Part shown: positions 2,587 to 14,147 of the stretch, piece after piece
How positions within the stretch are numbered: the first letter of the stretch is position 1
How the letters are laid out: the number at the start of each line of letters is the position of its first letter
Assembly (NCBI GenBank): GCA_017651465.1
Contig: JAGCCX010000030.1
Location: forward strand, 1-54,862
Origin: Bacteroidales bacterium
GTDB taxonomy: Bacteria; Bacteroidota; Bacteroidia; Bacteroidales; UBA932
Direction: 5' to 3'
Length of the DNA: 54,862 nucleotides
Notes under the pieces: generated by a model
Seen by the model: the letters and a program-made list of their open reading frames with translations, nothing else
Told to the model about the DNA's origin: nothing
The model's database searches: none
Translations under genes and position numbers: made by a program

Positions 2587-2618
2587 GAGGCCGCGCACTT
2601 GGGCGCGGCCTCTTTTTT
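2587..2618. terminator. Bidirectional rho-independent terminator
   Basis: A perfect 10-bp GC-rich stem (GAGGCCGCGC at 2587-2596 with its complement at 2603-2612) around a 6-nt loop is flanked by AAAA on the left and T6 on the right. It can stop the plus-strand repeat protein and, on the other strand, the beta-barrel gene whose stop codon (2617-2619) touches it. Confidence 0.9.
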
Positions 2619-4170
2619 AGAAGTATAGCTTTACGCCCCCGAGGGCGTTACCTCGATGGCGGTGTGCGATTCCCGAGGCCTCGTACGCCCAGTCACAGGA
2701 AGCGGTAAGGAACGAGCCTTGGGCACAGAGAGCAAGGCTAACACCTTTTGCAACATTGAACGCATATTCAACTTCCAGTCCTGCCTGCAGGCGGTCGGCG
2801 GCGAGGATAGAGAGATTATGTGGATAAAGATCCCGCACGGGGGCCGAAGCGCCGCGATGTCCCTGGTAAGAGTATTCGCCGTAAAGATTCTTTGTCGCGC
2901 GCAGCCTGAGGCCGGCAGTAAGGCTGGAATTGCTGAAACCAAAGCGCCTCTCGCAAACGGCCGACAGGGAGGCGTTGCCGTATCTGAAGACAGAGTGGGG
3001 GAGGGCGTAAGTATCATCTTTCCCTTCCCATGCGGCACCTGCTCCCCAGTGCCAGGAGTAGGCTTCGCCATCAGTGAGGTATGCGTTCCAGTCCAGCGAA
3101 GCGTCAAGCGAGCGCAGCATTACTTGGTCGATTGACATGGCGGTTATCCATTGCCCTGAACCGGTGTCCCAAAGCACCGTATGCTCGGTACCTTTGGTCT
3201 TTACGCCTTTTGCCGACAGGCGCAGGAAATGTTGCACCTTTTCACCCCAGATGGCTGATAATGAGCCGGATATGTTCTGGCGGTAAGTATTGCCGTGGGG
3301 CTTTGGCTGCGTTGCGCTCTCGGTGATGGTTGTCTTGTCCGTGAGATAGCCAAAGTCGGCGAGCAGTTTCCAGCCTTGGTTCCAGGAATACTGCAGGCCG
3401 CCGCCCCAGCTGTTGCAGCGGAAATACATAGTGCTCAGGCCGCTGCCGCCCACCTGGTCGCCCACCCAGTTGCCAAGCCCGCGGAGCAGGAACACCTTCT
3501 GTATCTCCTGGGAGTTGCTTATGCCCGGGGTTGAGCGCTCGAATGTGTTGGTATATATTCCGTTAAGCCCTATGGTGCCAATGTCGGTAGTCCAGGCGAG
3601 CGCCGGTTTGACAGAGACCGAATAGTGGTACGACTCGGCCCTCGGGTCTATCTGGCCGGCGGCTATGCGGTCGTTGTAGATAACGTGCAGGCCTGTCGAT
3701 ACTCTCTCTCCGAGCGGCAGCGCAGCTTTGAACTGCAGAAGATAGCTCTGCTTCTTCCACTGCCCCTCTATGGAGTCGGCGGCAGTGTACAGGAAGCGCT
3801 CGTCGTACGGGTTCCCCAGAAGAGTATTGAAAGAGGCTCCGTTCTCGGAAGAATTGTTGTAGCTGAAACGCCCCCAGGCAATGATCTTGCCTATCTTCTT
3901 CAGGCCCTGGGTGTCGAAGGTCAGCTCACCCTCTCTTTTGGGGCTTTGCTTAAGGCGGTAGTATCCCCGCTCATAGCTGAAGTCGGCATCGAGAAGGTTG
4001 AATTCGGCCGGAGCGTCGAAAGAAAGGCCTGCGGCATTGTCGGACCCCATCCACAGAGCGCGGCCTTCGTTCAGGACGCTCCAGGCTTTGTCGTGAAGCT
4101 CCTGCGCCGCCACGTTGAGGCAGAGGGGAGCTGTCAATAGCAGTGACAGTACTAATCTGTTGGTTCTCAT
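2617..4170 (-). CDS. DUF6850-like outer-membrane beta-barrel protein
   Basis: 517 residues from the ATG at 4170, which overlaps the TGA of the upstream gene as ATGA; an in-frame start 24 nt further upstream (4194) is less likely. The N-terminus is a signal peptide ending near AAQ. The rest alternates polar and aromatic residues (many GLxxxYN and WNxxW patterns) and ends in YF, as expected for an outer-membrane barrel. Size and position after a TonB receptor and a DUF4876-like lipoprotein match the DUF6850 family, whose function is not established. It is the last gene of the coupled operon that begins at 13980. I infer an accessory outer-membrane role in the same uptake or surface process. The family name is from memory, not a search. 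Confidence 0.72.
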   Translation of the reverse strand: MRTNRLVLSLLLTAPLCLNVAAQELHDKAWSVLNEGRALWMGSDNAAGLSFDAPAEFNLLDADFSYERGYYRLKQSPKREGELTFDTQGLKKIGKIIAWGRFSYNNSSENGASFNTLLGNPYDERFLYTAADSIEGQWKKQSYLLQFKAALPLGERVSTGLHVIYNDRIAAGQIDPRAESYHYSVSVKPALAWTTDIGTIGLNGIYTNTFERSTPGISNSQEIQKVFLLRGLGNWVGDQVGGSGLSTMYFRCNSWGGGLQYSWNQGWKLLADFGYLTDKTTITESATQPKPHGNTYRQNISGSLSAIWGEKVQHFLRLSAKGVKTKGTEHTVLWDTGSGQWITAMSIDQVMLRSLDASLDWNAYLTDGEAYSWHWGAGAAWEGKDDTYALPHSVFRYGNASLSAVCERRFGFSNSSLTAGLRLRATKNLYGEYSYQGHRGASAPVRDLYPHNLSILAADRLQAGLEVEYAFNVAKGVSLALCAQGSFLTASCDWAYEASGIAHRHRGNALGGVKLYF

Positions 4171-5369
4171 TGCGCGGTAGTCCAGTTGCTCCACGAAGGC
4201 CTTCCGGTTCCGTCACGTCGGATCTGGGGAGAATCGCTGACGGTAAAATCTTCGGTGGTATTGTTAGTATCTTGCAGGATAATGCTGCCGTTTTCGCGCC
4301 TGCCGGATATCTTCCGGACTACGCTCTCGTTGCCTCCGGTGGTGGAGCACTTGATCCAGCCCGCGTCAAGATCGCTTTCAAGGCGCTTGTCGTCGGGATT
4401 CTCGCTCTTGAGCAGGTCGATCGCGTCCAGGACATCGGTCTTAAGTACCTCCAGGCCGTAATTGTTGGCGTGGTTCGACTCCAGGTACTCTCCATCTTTG
4501 CGCAGCGGTACGGACGGATAGAACAGGGCCCAGGCGCCGTCGGTGAACTTGCCCAGCTGGTTTCCCAGCCCGCTCTCCTTGATGGTGCACACCAGGGTCA
4601 TATTCACGGCGTTGGCATCGGGCTGTCCGCCCCTTTCCTTGTATCTGTCGCAGATGGTCTCGAATTCGGCGGTCGAAAGGTCGAGGGTCTCGGCGGTCTG
4701 CGAGTGGTCGATGGCGGATGCGGCAATTACGAACGACTCTCCGGGAGCGATGGGGTAGTCGGTCCCGCTGCCCGGAATCTGCCAGACATAGGTGCCCATA
4801 AATACGTAGTTGGCGGCATCGGGCAGCTTGTCGGAGAAGTCATAGACCCGGCTGCTCAAAACGTCCCCCAGGCAAATTCCGTCGGCATACACCGTCTGCT
4901 CCGAATTATTATAAACCTCGAAGTAGGTGTCTTTGAGATAGCGCGCCGAGGCGGAATTCTTGACCATACTGGCATTGTAGTGTATCTCTTTGAACACCAG
5001 GGCGGAAGACTCTGAAGCGGATACTTTGATAGGAGTGGTGCCGGTGTTCCCGGGGCTTATCTTTACGGCATTTGCCGTGCCTATGTAGTTGAACGCCCGC
5101 CCGCCCAGAGTGCCGTGGGCCTGGACGGTAATGTTGTAGATACCCTGTACAAGCTCGAATGTCTGCGGAGAGAGGGCGTCGAATACCATTTCCTCGACGG
5201 CTTCGGTGCCGATGTTGCTGACGGTGATTTTGTAGCTGTCGGGCCTTGGAACGTCTCCCAGGGCCGACTCGTCGATGCTCGGACGCCATTCGACAAGCGA
5301 GGGCAGCCTGGTCTCTTCGCACGAGATGACCAGGCACAACGCCAGGAGGGAGTAGAGTATCCTTTTCAT
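4167..5369 (-). CDS. DUF4876-like surface lipoprotein
   Basis: 400 residues. The N-terminus MKRILYSLLALCLVISC has a typical lipobox with Cys17 as the lipidated residue. Next comes a beta-rich domain (about 30-125) containing IYNITVQAHGTLGG, then a domain with EIHYN and YFEVYNNSEQTVYADG (about 140-190), which resembles lamin-tail-like folds and is characteristic of DUF4876 proteins. The C-terminus is rich in SNHANNYGLE-type sequence. Start ATG 5369 overlaps the TGA of the receptor gene (ATGA) and its own TGA overlaps the next ATG, so it is translationally coupled on both sides. In Bacteroidota, DUF4876 proteins tend to sit beside TonB-dependent receptors; the ligand is unknown. I infer a surface-exposed partner that covers or feeds the receptor, by analogy with SusD, but there is no SusD similarity. 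Confidence 0.75.
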   Translation of the reverse strand: MKRILYSLLALCLVISCEETRLPSLVEWRPSIDESALGDVPRPDSYKITVSNIGTEAVEEMVFDALSPQTFELVQGIYNITVQAHGTLGGRAFNYIGTANAVKISPGNTGTTPIKVSASESSALVFKEIHYNASMVKNSASARYLKDTYFEVYNNSEQTVYADGICLGDVLSSRVYDFSDKLPDAANYVFMGTYVWQIPGSGTDYPIAPGESFVIAASAIDHSQTAETLDLSTAEFETICDRYKERGGQPDANAVNMTLVCTIKESGLGNQLGKFTDGAWALFYPSVPLRKDGEYLESNHANNYGLEVLKTDVLDAIDLLKSENPDDKRLESDLDAGWIKCSTTGGNESVVRKISGRRENGSIILQDTNNTTEDFTVSDSPQIRRDGTGRPSWSNWTTAQ

Positions 5370-8176
5370 ATCTTGAGTTTTATTTCAAAACCGAAGTACA
5401 TTGGATTGTTCAGCTCCGTGAAGCTGCCCTTGGATATTTCCGAAGGATCCAGAGGTCGGGAATTGAACAAATTGTTCACGTAGAAGGAGGCCGTCATAAA
5501 CTTGCGTATCTCTTTGGTTACGTTGAGGTTGAACACAACCGTAGGGATAGTGCGGCTGACGATGAAGCGGGAGTCGGACAGCTGCCCGACCATATATTTG
5601 TAGGCGGGGTCGGCTGCCATTTCGGATGTAAAGTCGTACACCAGGCCGTCTTCGACCGAGATGTAGCGCTGGGGCGCTTCGTCGTTATGATACTCGCTCC
5701 AGTTGCGCGTAAAGATGTTGAACTGGGTAGTGAGCGTCACCACGAAACCTATCGAAGGGATATTGTGGGTGGTACGGAGGGTGGTGAGGAACTTCTCGTA
5801 ATGATACTGCCTCACCCCCGGGTCGTAGATGGCCACGTTGCTGTTGACGTAGCTGCCTTCCTTGAGATTGAGGGAGAGCGTCTCGCCGGAATTGGAAGAT
5901 ACCGAATGCATCCAGGCTCCGTTGAGGAAGAACGAGGTGCGTATGGCGCTGAAGCGGCCCAGGTCGAGTTCGTACTCCAGGCCGTAGTGATGCTCCATTG
6001 CATTGTTGGCGGGGCGGTACCAGCCGAAGAAGCGGTGCGTATCGGCATCGGGCACAAACAGCGGTGCGCCGTCCGGGCCGTGACCTCCTATGTTCCAGGT
6101 CTTGTAGGGCACCCAGGCGAACGACTCCCGGCTGCGGGCGAAGGAATAACCGTTGCGCATCAATTCGTCGTACCAGGTCACACCGAGCCGGTAACGCTCC
6201 GCGATCTTGAGGTCGAAGCCTATTTCGGCCTTCCGGTTGCGGGCGATCTCCAGGTCGGGATTGACGGCGCTGAAGATACGTGTGGTGGCCATAACGGCGC
6301 GGTCTTCTTCCGCTGGCGCCTGGCTGGTGTTTATGTTTACCTGGTCGTAATAGGCGTCGGTGGGGTAGAGGTATGAGGACGTAGGCGCCTTGGCGGTGAT
6401 TCCCCAGCCGCCGCGCAGCGTCCAGACGTCGGGAATAATGTCCAGCGATGCGTTGATACGGGGGCCCAGAGCCGTAAGGGAGTTGACTATGTCAAGACGC
6501 ACGCCGGCGCTGAGATTGAAGTTACGCCTCAGCACTTTGGTCCTGAAGCTGCTTTCGGCGAACAGGCCTGTCTGGTTGACGAAGGGAATATCGTTCAGCG
6601 GCCTTTCGCGGTAGCCCGATTCGGTGTTGGTGCGGTTGGGCGGCAGGCCTTCGGTAAATACCAGGCCGCGGCCCAGGTTGCCTTCCGACTTGAAGTCTCC
6701 GCCGACGATTATCTTCTCGCTCGTGTCTCCCCATTGCTTGAACAGGTTGAGATATGCCTTGGCAAAAGTGCTGAGCTCCTTTCCGTAGAAGTCGTAGTGG
6801 CAGAAGTACGAATAGGGAGTCATTATCGCGTAGGCATAAGGGGAGGCGCCGAAAGAGGTGAGTTCGTTACCTTCCGTATCGAAAATACGCTTGCCCACGG
6901 CGTCGGCAACCGTAGTCCCGTCTGTCATATTGGTGGTAAATACCGCGATGGCGTTGATGTTGTCCTGCTCGTGGAAAGACTCCTTGTAAGTATAACTGTT
7001 GGACAGGTCGTAGCGCAGGGTCTTGAGCCACCCGCGGTTTATGTTCCACGTACCGTTGGTGTTGATGCGCCAGCCAAGTGACGTTCCGCCCGAAGCCAGA
7101 TTGGTGCGGAGGTCGTCGGGATTCTTGTCCCGGGTGTCTTTGCCAAGCCGCAGGTCCAGGGCAGTGGAAGTATTGAGGCTCCCGAAACGCTTGGACCAGA
7201 GGCCCTTGACGTTGAACCTCTGATAGTGGGCGTACGATTCGGTGGTTTTGGCGTTGCTGTAGGCGTAGTCGCCGGAGATGTGCAGGTCGCCGGCTTTCTC
7301 GCTGATCTTGAAGCCTTTGGATACGGCCACCTGATAGATTTTGGGGTCGGCTTTAAGGCGTACCGTGAGGGGTTCGGCACCGGCTTTAGAGTTGATGATC
7401 ACCGCTCCGGCGGTAAGGTCGCCGTACTGGACGGAGGGAATACCGCGGATAACTTCGACCGACTCGATGTTGTCGGTAGAGAGCTGGCGTACGTCAATGC
7501 CTCCGCCGGGCGTGGCTCCGCCGGCGGATACCGATGTGCCGGCGATTGCCGAGGATACGCCGTTCATCGTTGCCGTTATGCCCTCCATATTGGCGTTGTT
7601 GGACATAGGGGCGCCGTCCACTATGATGGCGGTCCCGAGGCTGTTCATATCGCTTCCGTTGACGGAGCGAAGGCCTATGCTGTGCGCCGAACTCAGGTCG
7701 GGATTGGTGATTGAAGCGCCGGGCAGCAGCTGCATAATGTCACGCAGCGAGCTGGTCTGGCTGTGGTCGATGGCCTGGCGCGAGATAAGCGAGGCGGTGG
7801 ATTCTCCGGCCTTGGAAGCTTCTGCCACCACGTGCACCTCTTCGAGCCTGAAGGAGCTCTGCGTGAGCACGAAGTCGCGGTGCAGCTCCCCGCGTATTGT
7901 GAGCGTGGTGTCGATGGTCTCGTACCCGATGAGCTGGATGTTGACTTGATACGAACCCGGATCAAGTCCTCCGAGCCGGTAGGATCCTTTTTCATCGGTG
8001 GTCGTATAAACCCCCGCAGGCTTGAGCAGGATTACGGCATAATCTACCGGCACGCTGACCCCGTTTTCGATTGTGGTCACGCGTCCCTGTATGGATGCTT
8101 TCTGCTGGGCCTGGACACCTATGGAGGCTAGTAGCAGCAGTGCCGTCAGCAGGGCTGTTTTACTTGGTGTGCGCAT
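5366..8176 (-). CDS. TonB-dependent outer-membrane receptor
   Basis: 936 residues from ATG 8176, chosen because it is directly followed by a signal peptide (MRTPSKTALLTALLLLASIG ending VQAQ); the frame also extends to 8218. Domains in order: carboxypeptidase-regulatory-like beta sandwich (about 25-110, ending HRDFVLTQ), TonB-box-like segment LEEVHVVAEASK (about 110), plug domain (about 120-240, with LPGASITNPDLSS, the VDGAPM motif, and VEVIRGIPSVQYGDLTAG), then a long 22-strand-type barrel ending KLKI. No STN domain, so it is not expected to signal to an anti-sigma factor. It overlaps the upstream peptidase gene by 17 bp and the downstream lipoprotein gene by 4 bp. It should import a scarce ligand across the outer membrane using TonB-ExbBD; the ligand is unknown. 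Confidence 0.92.
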   Translation of the reverse strand: MRTPSKTALLTALLLLASIGVQAQQKASIQGRVTTIENGVSVPVDYAVILLKPAGVYTTTDEKGSYRLGGLDPGSYQVNIQLIGYETIDTTLTIRGELHRDFVLTQSSFRLEEVHVVAEASKAGESTASLISRQAIDHSQTSSLRDIMQLLPGASITNPDLSSAHSIGLRSVNGSDMNSLGTAIIVDGAPMSNNANMEGITATMNGVSSAIAGTSVSAGGATPGGGIDVRQLSTDNIESVEVIRGIPSVQYGDLTAGAVIINSKAGAEPLTVRLKADPKIYQVAVSKGFKISEKAGDLHISGDYAYSNAKTTESYAHYQRFNVKGLWSKRFGSLNTSTALDLRLGKDTRDKNPDDLRTNLASGGTSLGWRINTNGTWNINRGWLKTLRYDLSNSYTYKESFHEQDNINAIAVFTTNMTDGTTVADAVGKRIFDTEGNELTSFGASPYAYAIMTPYSYFCHYDFYGKELSTFAKAYLNLFKQWGDTSEKIIVGGDFKSEGNLGRGLVFTEGLPPNRTNTESGYRERPLNDIPFVNQTGLFAESSFRTKVLRRNFNLSAGVRLDIVNSLTALGPRINASLDIIPDVWTLRGGWGITAKAPTSSYLYPTDAYYDQVNINTSQAPAEEDRAVMATTRIFSAVNPDLEIARNRKAEIGFDLKIAERYRLGVTWYDELMRNGYSFARSRESFAWVPYKTWNIGGHGPDGAPLFVPDADTHRFFGWYRPANNAMEHHYGLEYELDLGRFSAIRTSFFLNGAWMHSVSSNSGETLSLNLKEGSYVNSNVAIYDPGVRQYHYEKFLTTLRTTHNIPSIGFVVTLTTQFNIFTRNWSEYHNDEAPQRYISVEDGLVYDFTSEMAADPAYKYMVGQLSDSRFIVSRTIPTVVFNLNVTKEIRKFMTASFYVNNLFNSRPLDPSEISKGSFTELNNPMYFGFEIKLKI

Positions 8177-10229
8177 TGTCTTCAAGTCTTCTGAGGGTGC
8201 GGTGAATCTCGTCGGCAAGGGCGTCCGGGGTGACCTTGATCCCGCTCAGGCGCTGGTAAATCTCCTGCCGGCGGAAGGAATGGGTGTACCATCCGAGGGC
8301 CTCGGCCGCTTTGAGACGGAGGTTTTCGGGCGCTTTTTCGTCGCCCAGGACGGCAAACATAGGATCGATAGCCGCCGGGATGCAGGCGTTGCGCTGGTGG
8401 CTTATCGTTAACGCCCTGTCTTTCTCGCTGCCTTCTCCCTTTGCGAGAGCTTGCAGGTCGCCGTCGCTGCTGCGTATGCTGTTGCATATCCTCTTTACGC
8501 TGCTTTCAAAGTCCGCCGCCGTGGGCCAGATGCCGTCCCAGGCCGAGCGAAGTGCCTTTTCCACGCTCCCGGCGTTGTAAAGCGAAAAGGCGCTCAGGAG
8601 ATGAAAGCGCACTCTCGCTCCTTCTTGCGGGTCGAGATAGTGCCTGGCTATGGCCTCCAGCATATCCGGATCCCCGTAGTTCTCGGCGTAGCGCGCGGCC
8701 ATACGGCGAAGCATTTCGTACGGGTCGTCGAGGCCCTTCCGCAGCGCCGCGTCGATGATTTTAATGTCGGAAGCCTCGCGCATAATGTAGTAGAATGCCT
8801 CCAGACGCACATTCATCGAAGGGTCGTCCGAGAGAATCTGCAAGCATTTTTCCGCGCTGTAGCGCCCGTCGTGAATAGCTTTGCCGCGCAGCGAATCGGG
8901 GCTCTTGGCCTTGGAAGGGGCAAAACTGAAGGTGGGATCGCCGAAGAGGTGCGACTCGAGAGTCATATAATTGCGGACCCATTCGCCTACGCAAGTGCCC
9001 GAAATGAGCAGGCCGGCGAGCTCGTTTTTCCAGTGGTCCTGGATGATGTTTACCGAGTTTGCCGTAACCGCCAGAGTGCGGCTGCCGTGAGCGAAGGCGT
9101 AGCGCGAAGCCACATAATCATCGTGCAGGAAAGCTCCGTTGAAGCAGGCATCGAGAAGGATGACCTTGGCACCGGACCGGTAGCCGTTTAGATCTTCGAG
9201 CGTAATGTCCACGGCGGCCGCCCGCAGTGAATCGGCGCGGCTCACCTCAGCATCGTCCCATCCTTCCAGCCAGGAGGCGGGCACGTCGAACGACTGGCAC
9301 AGTTCGGCGGCCGTTGCCTCCTTGTTTTTAGATCTGCGCATACGGGCGCGCAAGGCTGACTTTACATTGTTGATATGCTCGCTCGTCATATAGGTGTAGG
9401 GCTCCTTGCTGATGTACTGGGCTCCCACTGCTCCGTGGCTGTGGATGTGGGCGAAATCAACGTCCGGGTCGGCGAGGGCGGCCATAAGGCGGGTGCGGGT
9501 AAAGAGATCTTCGTCGAAATTGAGGAAGCGTACCCGGCCCCGGGGCTCTTTGAGCGCAAACTGTTCGTAGTAAGCGCGTTCCTCGTCGATGCGGGCGTTG
9601 ATGCTCTCGGAACTGTTGCCGTGGCCTCCGAAATGGAATACTTCGTCCAGCTGATCCTTGCTGCTTTTTGCCGAGGCCGCCTTGTCGAGAAAATCGCTGA
9701 TAAGCTCGGTAAAACTGTGCTCCGGATCGGCCTTGGAAGGCTTGATGCGGGCCGTGTAGATGTCGCACCTGATTCTCTGCGCCCCCTCGGGAGAGAGGTC
9801 GTAGTAGTACAGGAGGCCATCCTGGCTAATGAAGTCGAAACGCAGCGAGAAGCAGTCGTAAAAGCGGTCGGAGGGGACGGAAGATCGCTTGATGGGCATA
9901 CCGGGGTTCATCTTGAACGCCGTACACAGGTGGTGCGAGCGGCGTATCATCGGAACGGGTATGTCTCCCACCAGCACGGCGCCTTCGAGCCCCTTGGTGC
10001 GATGCAGCAGCATCAGGGTGTCTCTCAGGCGTTCCGGGGTCCAGAGGGCAGAGAGTATCAGTACGTTCTTGCGGTCGTATTGCTTGATGGCGTCGGCATA
10101 GCGCTGCACCGAGGGAGCGGTAAGCTCGTAAGTGGCGGAATCGACGACCACCGCTACTGCCGTTCTGCAACGGGCTTGAAGCGTAACGGCGGCAAACAAG
10201 ACCGAAAGAGTAATCAGAAGCTTGTTCAT
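8160..10229 (-). CDS. Gingipain-family (C25-like, clan CD) cysteine peptidase with HEAT-like repeats
   Basis: 689 residues with an N-terminal signal peptide (cleavage near residue 19). The segment HIHSHG (His265) and the segment VILLDACFNGAF (Cys362) match the His-Gly and Cys positions of clan CD peptidases; the DACxNG pattern and a later LFGDPTF (about 428-434) are specifically reminiscent of family C25 (gingipains). A second HG motif, FHFGGHGNS, lies at 198-206. From about 450 to 680 the chain is helical with repeated DDPxxxVRxxAxxxI units, i.e. HEAT-like repeats, an uncommon companion for C25. There is no PorSS C-terminal sorting domain, so it is probably periplasmic or exported by another route. 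It overlaps both neighbours (4 bp upstream, 17 bp downstream). P. gingivalis gingipains mature fimbrillin lipoproteins; the gene just upstream here is fimbrillin-like, so a processing role is plausible inference. Confidence 0.82.
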   Translation of the reverse strand: MNKLLITLSVLFAAVTLQARCRTAVAVVVDSATYELTAPSVQRYADAIKQYDRKNVLILSALWTPERLRDTLMLLHRTKGLEGAVLVGDIPVPMIRRSHHLCTAFKMNPGMPIKRSSVPSDRFYDCFSLRFDFISQDGLLYYYDLSPEGAQRIRCDIYTARIKPSKADPEHSFTELISDFLDKAASAKSSKDQLDEVFHFGGHGNSSESINARIDEERAYYEQFALKEPRGRVRFLNFDEDLFTRTRLMAALADPDVDFAHIHSHGAVGAQYISKEPYTYMTSEHINNVKSALRARMRRSKNKEATAAELCQSFDVPASWLEGWDDAEVSRADSLRAAAVDITLEDLNGYRSGAKVILLDACFNGAFLHDDYVASRYAFAHGSRTLAVTANSVNIIQDHWKNELAGLLISGTCVGEWVRNYMTLESHLFGDPTFSFAPSKAKSPDSLRGKAIHDGRYSAEKCLQILSDDPSMNVRLEAFYYIMREASDIKIIDAALRKGLDDPYEMLRRMAARYAENYGDPDMLEAIARHYLDPQEGARVRFHLLSAFSLYNAGSVEKALRSAWDGIWPTAADFESSVKRICNSIRSSDGDLQALAKGEGSEKDRALTISHQRNACIPAAIDPMFAVLGDEKAPENLRLKAAEALGWYTHSFRRQEIYQRLSGIKVTPDALADEIHRTLRRLEDNAHTK

Positions 10230-12688
10230 TTCTCGATGACGGGACGTATGGGGTAAACGTACTGGCGGTTGCTGCCGTAAGTTGTGTTGACCGCGCCCTT
10301 GTTGTAGCAGGTCATACTGAAACCGGAAGTGCCGTTGTTGGCGTTGCCGGACCAGTAGGAGAAGCCGGTGCCCACGTTCCGCAGCGAGGCGTTTACCTTG
10401 CTGGAACTGGTGTTGGTGGTGGACATCGATCCGGTGGCGGGATAGAAAGTGGTGGTTCCTCCCTGGTTGGGAGCTGTGTAGAACAGCATTCCGTTATTGA
10501 ACTCTCCTTGCGAATTGTCTTTGCTGAAGGCGCTCCAGGCTCCGATAGGAGGCAGGGTGCATCCCACCGGGCAGGGGTCATAGACGCTCTTGACTATGGG
10601 AAGGGCGTTCTCCTCGGACGAGCTGCTGCTCGAGAATATCGCCTGGGTGGCGTTCCAGATGTTGGCGTAAACCCCGTCTCCGCCGGAACTGAGGTTGTAG
10701 TGCGTGGGATGGCCGATGTATGAGGCGATGTCGTTGCCCAGCACAGCGGCGCGGGTGCCCACGGTATCGCGCATCTCGGTGGTGAACCATACTTTCTTGG
10801 TGGCGTCAACCGTAACCTCGCAAGGAACTCCGTCGCTTGCGGGGAACGGGTCCTTGCGTCCCCACTGGTAGAACGGACAGTAACCGATGACGCTCTCGGG
10901 GAGGGTTCCGGCAAGCTGCTCGAGCGTAAACTCAATAACTTTGCCGCTGCTCTTTTCGGTAATGCGCACTCCGGTCCTGTGACCCTGGTAGGTAATGGCG
11001 CCCAGGAAAGGAGCCACCCAGCCCACATTGACGGGGCTGAACTGGTAAGTCTTGTTGGCCTTGTTGGTTATCGTTACTGGCGTGAGGTCCTGGGCTGTGG
11101 CGCCGCAAACCCATATATGCCAGCTCCATACGATCTTGCCTTCGGAGTCGAGGGCGCTGATGAGGGCGTTGCCCTCGCGTATGGTGGCGGCCGGCACTTC
11201 GAAGCAAATAACGTCGTTCACGCTGCCGGAGCCCTTGAGCTTGATTTTTTGGACGAGTCCCAGCGCATCCTCCCATTCGAGGCGGGCGCTTACCGCCTTT
11301 GCGCCTGAACCGTTGATGTAAGGTCCCGTGATGCCCTTGCCGTCAGCCCCGATGAAAGGGGATAGGCACGACTTGGCGCCTGCCGGGGGAGCGTAGGCCG
11401 TCTTGTTGTCGGCACCGCCCTTGATGGCATTGCCGTACACGAGAGGGAATGAATACCAGCCCGGGGTGGTGACTACGTAGCAGTTGGCCGTGTTGACGCC
11501 GCTGAGCGATGCGCCCATCAGCGTGTTGTTGTCGGTCGAGAGGTCGATGGGTTCGTCCATCGTGCCCCTTATGCGGGAGCCGCGCAGGCGGCTTACATTT
11601 TCGTTCAGGCCGCCGCTCTCTTCGGTGGGCAGCAGTTCGAGGATGCCGCTGCCGGCGCTGATGCCGGTCCTGAGTCTCGAAGGAGCCTCGGAAACGGGGG
11701 AGGAAGAACCGTCAAGGAAGTATTCCACGTCCACCGAACCGCTGCTCTTGAGATTGTAAGACAGCGAGTTGATGCCGGAATAAGAATACACAAGATGCTT
11801 TTCCTGCCCGGGATAAACGACTCCGGAGTTCTGTCCGTCGTCGTACTCGAAGCAGAAGGCCCCGTCTTCAGGTATCAGGGTAAGGGCGAGCGCTCCGGTA
11901 CGTACGCGGCTGCAGCGCTTGGCACTCAATGCTTTGCCGGTGCTCTTCTCGACGCTTCCGCCCTTGCCGCTAAGGGTGACGGTTACACCCTTCTTGAACT
12001 CCTGGGGGGCGATTGCAAGATAGTAAACGCCCTTTTCCAGAACCGCTCCGCCGTCGGAAATGCTGACTTCATTTATGCCGTCCACGATGGTGGGGTCGGG
12101 CGCCTCCGAAGTGGATGCCGTCATTCGTAGGGAACCGGCTATAGGCTCGCCGTTGTTACCACGGAACGAAATCTTGTCCACTCCGTCGGTCTGGAGGTCG
12201 ATTTCGACCAGGCACACGCAGGGTCTGAACACGAATTCCTTGGTCTTGCTGGCAGCTACCGCCACGATATTGCTGAACTGGCCGCGTATGGCTTTCTGCT
12301 CGGCGGGCAGGGTGGTGGTTATCGTACCGGTGGTATTGCTGGCGTTCTCGTCGAACGGATAAAGGGCATAATAGGTGCTGATTGCGGGAAGGGGATCTCC
12401 TTCAAGCCAGGTAGAAGTGCCCGTGAGAGTGACGGTAAAGGGATACTTGTCGTTCTTGTTGAAAATGCATACTACATCCTTGCCTTTTTCCCAGCAAATG
12501 GTGTATGCGTCGGTAAGGAAGGCCTTTGTGGCCTCGGCCGGGCTGATTCCCTGGGTGCCGGGGAAAAACTCGGTGCCGGTAACTTCAAAGCGTACGCGCT
12601 CCTGCTGGGGAAGGGTCTCAAGACCTTCTTTGGCGCAAGATACGATGGCAGCGGCGGCTGCAAGCAAAAAGAATAATGACTTTTTCAT
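10226..12688 (-). CDS. Fimbrillin-like lipoprotein with FISUMP-type C-terminus
   Basis: 820 residues. The N-terminus MKKSLFFLLAAAAAIVSC carries a lipobox (Cys18). Residues about 40-270 follow the Mfa-like fimbrillin pattern: TKAFLTD, STYYALYPFDENA, LPAEQKAIRGQF, FRPCVCLVEIDL, NNGEPIAGS and GVYYLAIAPQEFKKGV. A middle beta-rich region (about 290-620) contains ANCYVVTTPGWYSFPLVYGN. The last 115 residues start at VYDPCPVGCTLPP and end YPIRPVIEK, a FISUMP-like domain. It overlaps the peptidase gene by 4 bp and starts 12 nt after the 42-residue peptide gene, with GAGGG as an unusually good ribosome site. Type V pilins are made as lipoproteins and cut by C25 peptidases, which would fit the next gene; this protein is larger than a typical pilin, so it could instead be an anchored adhesin. 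Confidence 0.8.
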   Translation of the reverse strand: MKKSLFFLLAAAAAIVSCAKEGLETLPQQERVRFEVTGTEFFPGTQGISPAEATKAFLTDAYTICWEKGKDVVCIFNKNDKYPFTVTLTGTSTWLEGDPLPAISTYYALYPFDENASNTTGTITTTLPAEQKAIRGQFSNIVAVAASKTKEFVFRPCVCLVEIDLQTDGVDKISFRGNNGEPIAGSLRMTASTSEAPDPTIVDGINEVSISDGGAVLEKGVYYLAIAPQEFKKGVTVTLSGKGGSVEKSTGKALSAKRCSRVRTGALALTLIPEDGAFCFEYDDGQNSGVVYPGQEKHLVYSYSGINSLSYNLKSSGSVDVEYFLDGSSSPVSEAPSRLRTGISAGSGILELLPTEESGGLNENVSRLRGSRIRGTMDEPIDLSTDNNTLMGASLSGVNTANCYVVTTPGWYSFPLVYGNAIKGGADNKTAYAPPAGAKSCLSPFIGADGKGITGPYINGSGAKAVSARLEWEDALGLVQKIKLKGSGSVNDVICFEVPAATIREGNALISALDSEGKIVWSWHIWVCGATAQDLTPVTITNKANKTYQFSPVNVGWVAPFLGAITYQGHRTGVRITEKSSGKVIEFTLEQLAGTLPESVIGYCPFYQWGRKDPFPASDGVPCEVTVDATKKVWFTTEMRDTVGTRAAVLGNDIASYIGHPTHYNLSSGGDGVYANIWNATQAIFSSSSSSEENALPIVKSVYDPCPVGCTLPPIGAWSAFSKDNSQGEFNNGMLFYTAPNQGGTTTFYPATGSMSTTNTSSSKVNASLRNVGTGFSYWSGNANNGTSGFSMTCYNKGAVNTTYGSNRQYVYPIRPVIEK

Positions 12689-12700
12689 ACAGCAACCCTC

Positions 12701-12829
12701 CTACCATTCCCAGTTAATGTTTTCCGACTCGGTGAAGTCCTCCGACGAGCTCCCCGTAAGGCTCTCGCAGATGATCAGGACGGGGCTGTACTCCGCAGCC
12801 TCGGTGTGCGGTTTGATGTACTGTCTCAT
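12701..12829 (-). CDS. 42-residue peptide gene within the operon
   Basis: A short frame reads MRQYIKPHTEAAEYS... and ends NINWEW. Its ATG (12829) overlaps the TGA of the ATPase gene as ATGA, and its TAG lies 12 nt before the lipoprotein ATG, so it fills the gap exactly as a coupled gene would. The first half is basic with the M-(K/R)-xYIKPxT start seen in many short Bacteroidota frames; residues 16-22 are hydrophobic (PVLIICE); the tail is acidic and Ser-rich with paired Trp (INWEW). There is no signal peptide. It could be a secreted or processed peptide precursor, a structural small protein or a translational coupler. No function is established that I can recall. Its neighbours include a peptidase and a receptor, which makes a peptide-precursor role worth testing. 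Confidence 0.6.
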   Translation of the reverse strand: MRQYIKPHTEAAEYSPVLIICESLTGSSSEDFTESENINWEW

Positions 12830-13980
12830 ATTTTTATCTCAAAATAATATTTCGTTACCCAGTATTCGAAAAGAGGATCGATGATGTGCGGAACGTCTTC
12901 TTCGTCAAAGGTCAGGATTTCTTTCTTGCAGAGGGCGTCCTTGAGGCGCCTGACGTTTGCCGACGAGTTGAGCCCGTAGCGGTGAATGACCTCGGCGCTG
13001 CTGAATTTGCTGTGCCCGTCGATAACGGCGCGCAGCAGGCCCACCTGGAAAGTGGTAAGGTCGCTCATCGTGGCCTTGAAACGGGGCTCGTGCATCGCCA
13101 GCAGCTGCGAGAGGGCCTCTATCAGCACGGGTTCGGTCATATAACCCTTGGAGAGCGAGTCGCAGATGGCGGCGAAGGTATTGATATAGAAAGCGTTGCT
13201 CTTGAACAGCTGGCACGCTCCGAGCATCAGGGCCCGGTCCACGACCTTTCCGCTTGACAGGAAGCCCCTGTTTACCGATTCGGCAATGTCTTTGGTGTCG
13301 ATCGCGCCCAGGGCCACTCTCTCCACTTGTCGGTAGAAGTATTTGTGGTGCTCGAAGATCTCTTTCATCGCGTTGACTTGCGAGCCGTAGAGGATGTAGC
13401 AGGCGGCAGCCCGGTCTTCGGGTGTGCGGGCCTTGAACACTTCCTGCAGCAGGCGGCAGAGCCGGTCGCCGTCTTCGGTCAGCATAACGTTCTGGAAGTC
13501 GTCGATGCAAACGAAGAGTTTGCGCCCGTCCGAGCGTGCCAGGCGGTAGGGGAGGCTCAGCAGGGAGCGTATGTCCTCCTCGTTGATGTCCCAGTTGAGC
13601 GAGAGTATGGAGCCGCTGTCCTGATATGCCGTTTGGTCGAAGATGAAATGCGTGCCCTGGAAGTGGGTCGCCACCAGGCGGTCGTATTCGTCGGGGGTGG
13701 TGCCGTAGAGCTTGATTATCGAAGAGCCCAGATGCAGGCAGAAATCATTGATGGTCCGGATGTTGAGCAGCGAGAGCGAGGCTATGCGGAATTGCTGCGA
13801 GGATATCTTCATATCGAAGAACACTTGCTGCAGCAGCGAATCCTTGCCGGCCTTGGGGGGCTCGTACATCACTACATTTTCGCCTTCACGTATCAGATTG
13901 CCCAGAATTGCCGTCTCGGCCTTGCGCCCGATGAAGTGGCGTCCGGTTACAGGTTTATTGTAAATAAAAGGAGCATCCAT
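12826..13980 (-). CDS. AAA ATPase of the archaeal-type (ATPase_2-like) family with winged-helix C-terminus
   Basis: 384 residues from ATG 13980 (MDAPFIYNKPV); the frame continues upstream to 14046 but that would run into the predicted promoter. GRKAE (about 19) and VVMYEPPKAGKDSLL (about 37-51) form the Walker A region, and KLFVCIDDFQNV (about 163-174) the Walker B. Near the end, SSAEVIHRYGLNSSANVRRLKDALCKK looks like a winged-helix segment, followed by DPLFEYWVTKYYF, a common ending of this family. Proteins of this type in Bacteroidales have no agreed function; some may couple ATP hydrolysis to DNA binding or stress sensing. Its TGA overlaps the start of the 42-residue peptide gene. It is the first gene of the operon, so a regulatory or assembly role for the downstream surface proteins is inference. 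Confidence 0.82.
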   Translation of the reverse strand: MDAPFIYNKPVTGRHFIGRKAETAILGNLIREGENVVMYEPPKAGKDSLLQQVFFDMKISSQQFRIASLSLLNIRTINDFCLHLGSSIIKLYGTTPDEYDRLVATHFQGTHFIFDQTAYQDSGSILSLNWDINEEDIRSLLSLPYRLARSDGRKLFVCIDDFQNVMLTEDGDRLCRLLQEVFKARTPEDRAAACYILYGSQVNAMKEIFEHHKYFYRQVERVALGAIDTKDIAESVNRGFLSSGKVVDRALMLGACQLFKSNAFYINTFAAICDSLSKGYMTEPVLIEALSQLLAMHEPRFKATMSDLTTFQVGLLRAVIDGHSKFSSAEVIHRYGLNSSANVRRLKDALCKKEILTFDEEDVPHIIDPLFEYWVTKYYFEIKI

Positions 13981-14000
13981 TATAAAACAACTATGTTTCA

Positions 14001-14031
14001 CAAATATGATTAAGATTTTTCTAAAAAGCAA
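14001..14031 (-). promoter_or_regulatory. Probable promoter of the ATPase/peptidase/receptor operon
   Basis: On the minus strand TTG (14031-14029) is followed after 20 nt by CATATTTG (14008-14001), one base off the Bacteroidota -7 consensus TAnnTTTG. The ATG at 13980 lies 20 nt downstream. It overlaps in space with the divergent rplU promoter. Confidence 0.55.
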
Positions 14032-14034
14032 GTA

Positions 14035-14064
14035 TTGGAAAATCAATAATAATTACTAACTTTG
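14035..14064 (+). promoter_or_regulatory. Promoter of rplU-rpmA
   Basis: TTG at 14035-14037, a 19-nt spacer and an exact TAACTTTG at 14057-14064 match the Bacteroidota primary sigma promoter (-33 TTG, -7 TAnnTTTG). Confidence 0.8.
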
Positions 14065-14147
14065 CGGTCCATTTTATGACCGATGAGCCCGATAAGATCT
14101 GCCGCTTCGCAGACGCTCACGGCCCAAACATTTAAAAGAATTGTTTG
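14065..14147 (+). promoter_or_regulatory. rplU 5' leader
   Basis: About 80 nt separate the -7 box from the rplU ATG. It contains a small stem (TCTGC near 14098 with GCAGA) and could hold an autoregulatory structure as L21 leaders do in some other bacteria, but I see no recognised motif. Confidence 0.3.

Follow-up and report, generated by a model that had tools for sequence, protein, structure and literature searches.

Introduction

The Fus system of Pectobacterium and a wider group of protease-associated import systems are described from Proteobacteria, where M16 proteases accompany the import of intact protein for iron and other proteases are sometimes linked to FusA homologues (cited passages of PMC6793856). 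Here we describe a TonB-dependent locus of a Bacteroidales bacterium that resembles these systems in outline and differs from them in its protease and its additional proteins. The locus lies on contig JAGCCX010000030.1, whose 54,862 nt are the whole stretch of DNA analysed and are called the window below. Its conserved part consists of four genes, for a C25-like protease with C-terminal HEAT repeats, a TonB-dependent receptor, a DUF4876 lipoprotein, and a DUF6850 protein.

Loci related to this one have been placed in an iron-starvation stimulon by transcriptomics, according to passages of PMC10434189. Under iron depletion, expression increased by 20.8-214.5 fold for PG1019-22, by 3.5-7.4 fold for BT1933-39 (HEAT-repeat protein, DUF4876, and TonB genes), and by 38.1-128.1 fold for BT3625-33 (ABC [ATP-binding cassette], PepSY, fimbrillin, two DUF4876, and TonB genes). 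In excerpts of two further studies, a hemin comparison gave a log2 change of -5.42 for a DUF4876 gene and -6.11 for hmuY (PMC10470040), and DUF4876 genes were again among the changed transcripts (PMC10101095). All three loci of PMC10434189 share a TonB receptor and DUF4876 with the window, and BT1933-39 also shares a HEAT-repeat gene. By contrast, those passages compare the loci between species as iron-regulated units and do not mention a protease, DUF6850, or an exchange of partners, and the window lineage adds a peptide and a lipoprotein. A preliminary description of the window had proposed a surface processing and uptake machine that it did not recognize as described; the literature that we searched likewise contained no description of such a processing-and-uptake operon, no mention of DUF6850, and no paper that combines C25, HEAT, TonB, and iron.

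Results

A four-gene core is conserved in distant Bacteroidales

Named genomes were scanned with an alignment of the protease, and the best 79 loci of 528 encoding stretches, a set that leans to close relatives, were compared. A TonB receptor gene is encoded on the same strand as the C25-like gene in 77 of these loci, DUF4876 in 69, DUF6850 in 68, and all three in 67. A C25-like gene lies directly upstream of the TonB gene in 76/79 loci and directly downstream of DUF6850 in 27/79, and at least two C25-like open reading frames (ORFs) are present in 32/79. Most loci that lack a core partner sit at contig or locus ends. Nine of the ten loci without DUF4876 end no more than ≈200 bases past the last C25 or TonB gene; ≈800 bases still remain in L190, which has five C25-like genes in a row and no DUF4876. 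The 79 loci come from Bacteroidales sampled in the rumen, the gut, and elsewhere, with Proteiniphilum, Tannerella, Prevotellaceae, Rikenellaceae, and Cryptobacteroides among them. Thus, the conserved order in distant genomes that the preliminary description had named as support for a system is found for the four-gene core. It is not found for the full set of seven genes that had been proposed, whose peptide and lipoprotein are confined to near relatives of the window.

The association was also seen when 393 genomes from the order were sampled regardless of the protease, with two C25-like candidates scored per genome. This sample contains the window's genome and shares at least three genomes with the named set (G248, G329, and G344, apparently L242, L240, and L244). 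A DUF6850 match at E <= 0.001 occurs in 84/393 genomes, 70 of them above the cut-off, and a C25-like match occurs in 23/393, 16 of which are strong (E <= 1e-60). In 15 of these 16 genomes no more than 3.4 kb separates the protease from a DUF6850 match, and the sixteenth match is a contig-end fragment; the seven weaker matches (3.7e-11 to 9.1e-4) were excluded from this proximity count.

The TonB-DUF4876-DUF6850 core has exchangeable partners

The partners of the core were counted in 100 fetched stretches containing 95 DUF6850 genes, with same-strand neighbors scored up to 5 kb away and the window operon excluded. Some loci of this census were chosen by DUF4876 and others by DUF6850, some stretches end at contig ends, related genomes are non-independent, and ORFs were called with a simple greedy script. 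TonB and DUF4876 genes accompany 90 of the 95 DUF6850 genes; the remainder, which lack the full core (L260, L281, L282, L305, L307), were left out. The 90 cores are partnered by a C25-like gene in 14 cases, an M16 protease gene in 8, an ABC set plus DUF4857 in 29, an S46 gene in 4, and none of these in 35. A C25 or M16 protease (22 cores) and the ABC set (29 cores) never occur together (0/90; Fisher p = 4.9e-05, with relatedness ignored). The ABC set is undercounted, as L062, L253, L271, and L275 carry it in the same gene run outside the 5-kb rule, and L053 was scored as C25 despite intervening genes.

A second TonB-DUF4876-DUF6850 core is present in the window's own genome (G000 contig 52, ≈81400-90160; L033:5403-14160). 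Downstream of it is a gene for an M16 protease of 935 amino acids with a signal-like N-terminus and an HFLEH motif. This protein matches 9ldy at 7.8e-107, PqqL at 2.1e-64, 6b03 at 6.1e-38, and 6b05 and 6brs at about 1e-37, where 6b03, 6b05, and 6brs are FusC structures. Neither these alternative protease or ABC partners nor the iron regulation reported in print for related loci was foreseen in the preliminary description.

The protease family is C25-like and carries signal-like N-termini

The window protease had been labeled a C25 peptidase. The link to C25 comes from the family, through its His/Cys pattern and Pfam C25 matches in a few members; the window copy matches HEAT_2 and not C25 in Pfam. 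H265-G266 and D360-A361-C362 are invariant across 26 aligned sequences of the family, and a His-Gly/Ala-Cys pair is the catalytic pattern of peptidase family C25. The Pfam C25 profile matches 4/26 members at E <= 1 (best 7.4e-07), one of them at 22.8 bits, just under the cut-off of 23. Because of the invariant residues together with these matches, we call the family C25-like, and His265 and Cys362 of the window protease form its putative catalytic pair. A profile search of the PDB with the protease matched HEAT-repeat proteins; for the catalytic part it returned nothing but adrenodoxin at chance level (E 2.2).

By a crude test, 138/141 C25-like ORFs have a hydrophobic N-terminal core and 6/141 have a lipobox. 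Gingipains end in a C-terminal sorting domain of the type IX secretion system (T9SS). No such domain occurs among the Pfam matches of the 26 family members, and the one Por_Secre_tail match in the window's genome lies elsewhere than the protease. Because signal-like N-termini occur without a T9SS tail, the simplest reading places the family in the periplasm rather than at the surface, as a probably soluble enzyme. The family therefore resembles the gingipains in its His and Cys pattern within the first 400 residues and in its four Pfam C25 matches, and differs from them in its HEAT C-terminus, in the absence of a detected T9SS sorting domain, and in its fixed place in TonB operons.

Some C25-like genes have unusual forms or arrangements. 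L218, L220, L224, and L233 each contain a C25-like ORF of 1419-1452 amino acids, ≈2 times the usual length, beside another separate copy. Runs of C25-like genes occur in L190 (five copies) and L191 (three), with, upstream of them, a gene of a family designated N2, whose one tested member matches Peptidase_S9.

Receptor, DUF4876, and DUF6850 proteins

The identity of the TonB receptor, as proposed earlier, is borne out by its Pfam plug and CarbopepD_reg_2 domains. The DUF4876 profile matches a solved structure annotated as 'Putative lipoprotein' (4q1z_A) at 7.2e-107, and the DUF4876 lipoprotein is the probable partner of the receptor. By its family annotation, the DUF6850 protein is presumably an outer-membrane beta-barrel; a profile search of the PDB gave no credible solved relative for it (best E 0.32). 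Like SusCD-type loci, the window encodes a TonB receptor with a CarbopepD_reg_2 domain and a lipoprotein. Unlike them, the lipoprotein partner is DUF4876 and not SusD, for which there is no Pfam match among the seven window proteins.

The peptide, lipoprotein, and ATPase are additions to the core

The seven genes proposed as one unit comprise the core plus genes for an AAA-type ATPase, a 42-residue peptide, and a fimbrillin-like lipoprotein. An ORF check places all seven on the minus strand of the window. All seven also occur in the same order and direction in four relatives (L166-L169), which argues that the order is not due to chance; L166 (bin RUG13810) is the nearest relative, and several near relatives are rumen bins, so the window probably comes from the rumen as well. 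The proposed arrangement is thus real in the window and in L166-L169, but it is not one conserved set, because the ATPase is separable and the peptide and lipoprotein are lineage-restricted.

The peptide is present in 9/79 loci and the lipoprotein in 11/79, all of them near relatives of the window. Among the 58 loci with 2.6 kb or more of sequence ahead of the first C25-like gene, 48 lack the lipoprotein; the other 21/79 loci hold less than this and were excluded from the count. Alignment of nine peptide homologues shows conservation of Y4, P7, C21, S23, D31, F32, I38, and W40, and the peptide matched no family, nor anything in PHROGs. A profile of the peptide matches in 5/41 genomes, the window's own included. 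In three of nine peptide matches that lie apart from the module, the peptide directly precedes a lipoprotein ORF (G000 contig 49:32013-32120, G171 contig 16, and G152 contig 21). Our script found no pair for the other six, yet in one of these (G158 contig 49) a lipoprotein match starts 36 bases after the peptide match. No protease match is present on these four contigs. Because the two genes are found paired away from the TonB module, they look like a cassette of their own that was added to the module in this lineage. The label 'fimbrillin-like' is tentative: a single sequence among the 11 in the alignment has a match to Mfa_like_1 (9.7e-06), whereas the window lipoprotein has no Pfam match, and it matched nothing in a profile search of the PDB.

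The ATPase has a wider distribution than the protease among 25 genomes of the genus, many of them incomplete (matches in 22/25 and 6/25, respectively). The fetched stretches of 16/21 ATPase orthologues contain rplU, rpmA, or serS at distances of 34 to 3669 bases. Just downstream of the ATPase, 13/21 have a SIR2-like motif (identified as a motif only). Nine named loci encode the ATPase as well as the peptide; the ATPase gene is oriented like the module in four of them (L166-L169) and diverges from it in five (L171, L172, L174, L175, and L178, with an intervening gene in L171). TAnnTTTG, the Bacteroidetes -7 element, occurs 25-31 nt before the peptide start in all five divergent loci (raw count). 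We conclude that the ATPase belongs to the rplU neighborhood and stands outside the conserved system, although it is ATGA-coupled to the peptide in the window. Where the ATPase is co-directional with the module, namely in the window and the loci L166-L169, their co-transcription is plausible but local. A seven-gene system was therefore rejected: the ATPase is widespread, rplU-linked, and divergent in 5/9 loci, and the peptide and lipoprotein are lineage-restricted.

Discussion

A candidate iron-linked import system analogous to Fus

We interpret the core as a protease-associated outer-membrane TonB import system that is linked to iron and analogous to Fus but has another type of protease, and we put the probability of this interpretation at roughly 0.5. 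Regulation of the core system by iron is most likely. In the mechanism that we envisage, the DUF4876 lipoprotein, perhaps together with DUF6850, would capture a substrate at the cell surface, and the TonB receptor would carry it, presumably inward, into the periplasm. There, a soluble C25-like/HEAT protease may cut the substrate to yield iron, an iron-bearing part, or peptides. In related cores, an M16 protease could take this step instead, or the substrate could be handed to an inner-membrane set of ABC, DUF4857, and PepSY proteins. Of the surface processing and uptake machine proposed in the preliminary description, the idea of an operon for processing and uptake that distant Bacteroidales retain is supported, and the features of the protease point to the periplasm rather than the surface.

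The window system and Fus-type systems share a TonB receptor gene beside the gene for an exported protease (passages of PMC6793856); iron-linked expression would be a further common trait if the response of related loci in other species (passages of PMC10434189) extends to the window. In the window, receptor and protease belong to one operon layout with a 17-bp overlap, and export of the protease is suggested by the N-termini of its family. The differences lie in the protease, which is a C25-like cysteine type and not the M16 type of FusC and PqqL (M16 being found only at the L033 core); in the receptor, which matches no solved structure; in the added DUF4876 and DUF6850 proteins; and in the host, Bacteroidales versus Proteobacteria. 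Since the window system has no M16 protease and, by a single-sequence search, no FusA-type receptor, we do not file it as a Fus-type member.

Several points weigh against an iron-linked importer of this kind. The window receptor gave no PDB match at E <= 0.001, and so no sequence link to FusA, in a single-sequence search that may miss a distant link. Neither a protease nor the ABC set lies within 5 kb of 35/90 cores, so the core does not depend on having a protease. The strict DAC-NG pattern is absent from 3/76 upstream copies and 9/65 other C25-like copies, and HxHG is present in 72/76 and 55/65 of these, respectively; given the copies without DAC-NG, not every C25-like copy need be active, and some are perhaps inactive. 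A protease partner also does not prove protein import. PqqU is the receptor linked to PqqL. This E. coli TonB receptor is reported to import the small molecule pyrroloquinoline quinone (cited passages of PMC12124388), which implies that the substrate may be small. Moreover, yddB or pqqL mutants of E. coli showed no growth defect under iron limitation (cited passages of PMC6793856). Finally, the iron response comes from print and from related loci of other species (passages of PMC10434189), and the HEAT protein of BT1933-39 is provisionally assigned to the window protease family from its annotation and neighbors.

In a broader and more tentative view, which we regard as possible but doubtful, Bacteroidales may have independently built a class of protein- or peptide-piracy importers, in which a TonB/DUF4876/DUF6850 core with exchangeable C25-like/HEAT, PqqL/FusC-like M16, or ABC/DUF4857/PepSY partners takes iron from whole proteins or from peptides in the gut and the rumen. 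If so, the idea of protein import for iron, described for Proteobacteria in passages of PMC6793856, would extend to another phylum and to dominant anaerobes of gut and rumen, and DUF4876, DUF6850, and the C25-like protease family would gain functions. BT1933-39 provides named genes in a tractable Bacteroides in which this idea can be examined.

Alternative interpretations

The alternative that survives best is a nutrient system that is independent of iron, in which the C25-like protease would cut dietary or microbial protein outside or on the cell and the TonB receptor would import the peptides for nitrogen or carbon. The presence of the N2 family, with its one Peptidase_S9-matching member, in 12/79 loci, of S46-like genes near 4/90 cores, and of at least two C25-like ORFs in 32/79 loci is consistent with such a role. 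We nevertheless consider it unlikely, given that no T9SS tail appears among the Pfam matches of the 26 family members, that a lipobox occurs in just 6/141 ORFs, that SusD has no match among the seven window proteins, and that related loci respond to iron in passages of PMC10434189.

A maturation machine, in which the protease would process the fimbrillin-like or DUF4876 lipoprotein while surface assembly or export would fall to the receptor or DUF6850, is improbable. The ATGA coupling of lipoprotein and protease genes in the window, their adjacency in relatives that hold both, and the fimbrillin family protein encoded in BT3625-33 (passages of PMC10434189) would suit this role. However, the lipoprotein is missing from the 48/58 loci noted above, pairs of peptide and lipoprotein genes are also found on contigs that lack a protease match, no T9SS tail is found in the 26 members, and 29/90 cores carry the ABC/DUF4857 set instead, which suits uptake. 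Surface maturation of fimbrillin, suggested earlier from the known role of C25 peptidases, was accordingly rejected as a general role, given the absence of the lipoprotein from most loci and the features that point the protease to the periplasm.

Receptor-associated defense or quality control, in which a periplasmic protease would destroy bacteriocins or other toxic proteins taken in via the receptor, would place an identical-looking guard protease beside a TonB receptor, and a gene family whose one tested member matched alpha-2-macroglobulin, a protease trap, lies upstream in 5/79 loci. Defense is very unlikely in our judgment, because the ABC set that replaces the protease in related cores fits uptake better and because related loci respond to iron (passages of PMC10434189).

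Layout of the window and neighboring genes

The positions of the module genes are collected in Table 1. These coordinates confirm the four ATGA overlaps reported earlier (ATPase/peptide, lipoprotein/protease, receptor/DUF4876, and DUF4876/DUF6850), as well as the 17-bp overlap of protease and receptor and the 12-nt gap between peptide and lipoprotein. An exact TAnnTTTG is absent from the intergenic region at 13981..14147.

Table 1. Genes and sites of the TonB module in the window.
Feature	Position	Strand	Evidence or remark
AAA-type ATPase	12826..13980	-	PF01637 E 0.00097, below cut-off
42-residue peptide	12701..12829	-	9 homologues aligned; no family match
Fimbrillin-like lipoprotein, 820 aa	10226..12688	-	52-88% identity to 10 relatives
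C25-like cysteine protease with C-terminal HEAT repeats, 689 aa	8160..10229	-	HEAT_2 E 2.4e-08; signal-like N-terminus
Putative catalytic His265 and Cys362 (protease gene)	≈9435-9437 (His265); ≈9144-9146 (Cys362)	-	alignment of 26 sequences
TonB-dependent receptor, CarbopepD_reg_2 and plug, 936 aa	5366..8176	-	Pfam PF13715 1.8e-11, PF07715 2.6e-11
DUF4876 lipoprotein, 400 aa	4167..5369	-	PF16215 E 9.7e-25
DUF6850 protein, 517 aa	2617..4170	-	PF21012 E 9.7e-78
ATPase/rplU intergenic region, likely promoter in this genome	13981..14147	-	CATATTTG, one base off TAnnTTTG

Further gene families accompany the module at other loci, and their labels (N0-N17) rest on at most one Pfam-tested member each. 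A family of small proteins (N0, 146-172 amino acids) is encoded just upstream of the first C25-like gene in 15/79 loci (e.g., L203:9432-9875); the member that was read is Cys/His-rich with a hydrophobic N-terminus and may bind metal. Genes of the N11 and N12 families lie upstream of the C25-like gene in L209, L222, L229, L230, and L231, and the N11 and N12 members that were tested, which both come from L209, have matches to bacterial alpha-2-macroglobulin and MeaB. In the window, a gene for a large GLUG/FISUMP-type protein on the plus strand (13-2562) converges tail to tail on the module. Past DUF6850, a related gene is encoded on the opposite strand in L168, L169, L172, L173, L174, L175, and L178, and on the same strand in L167.

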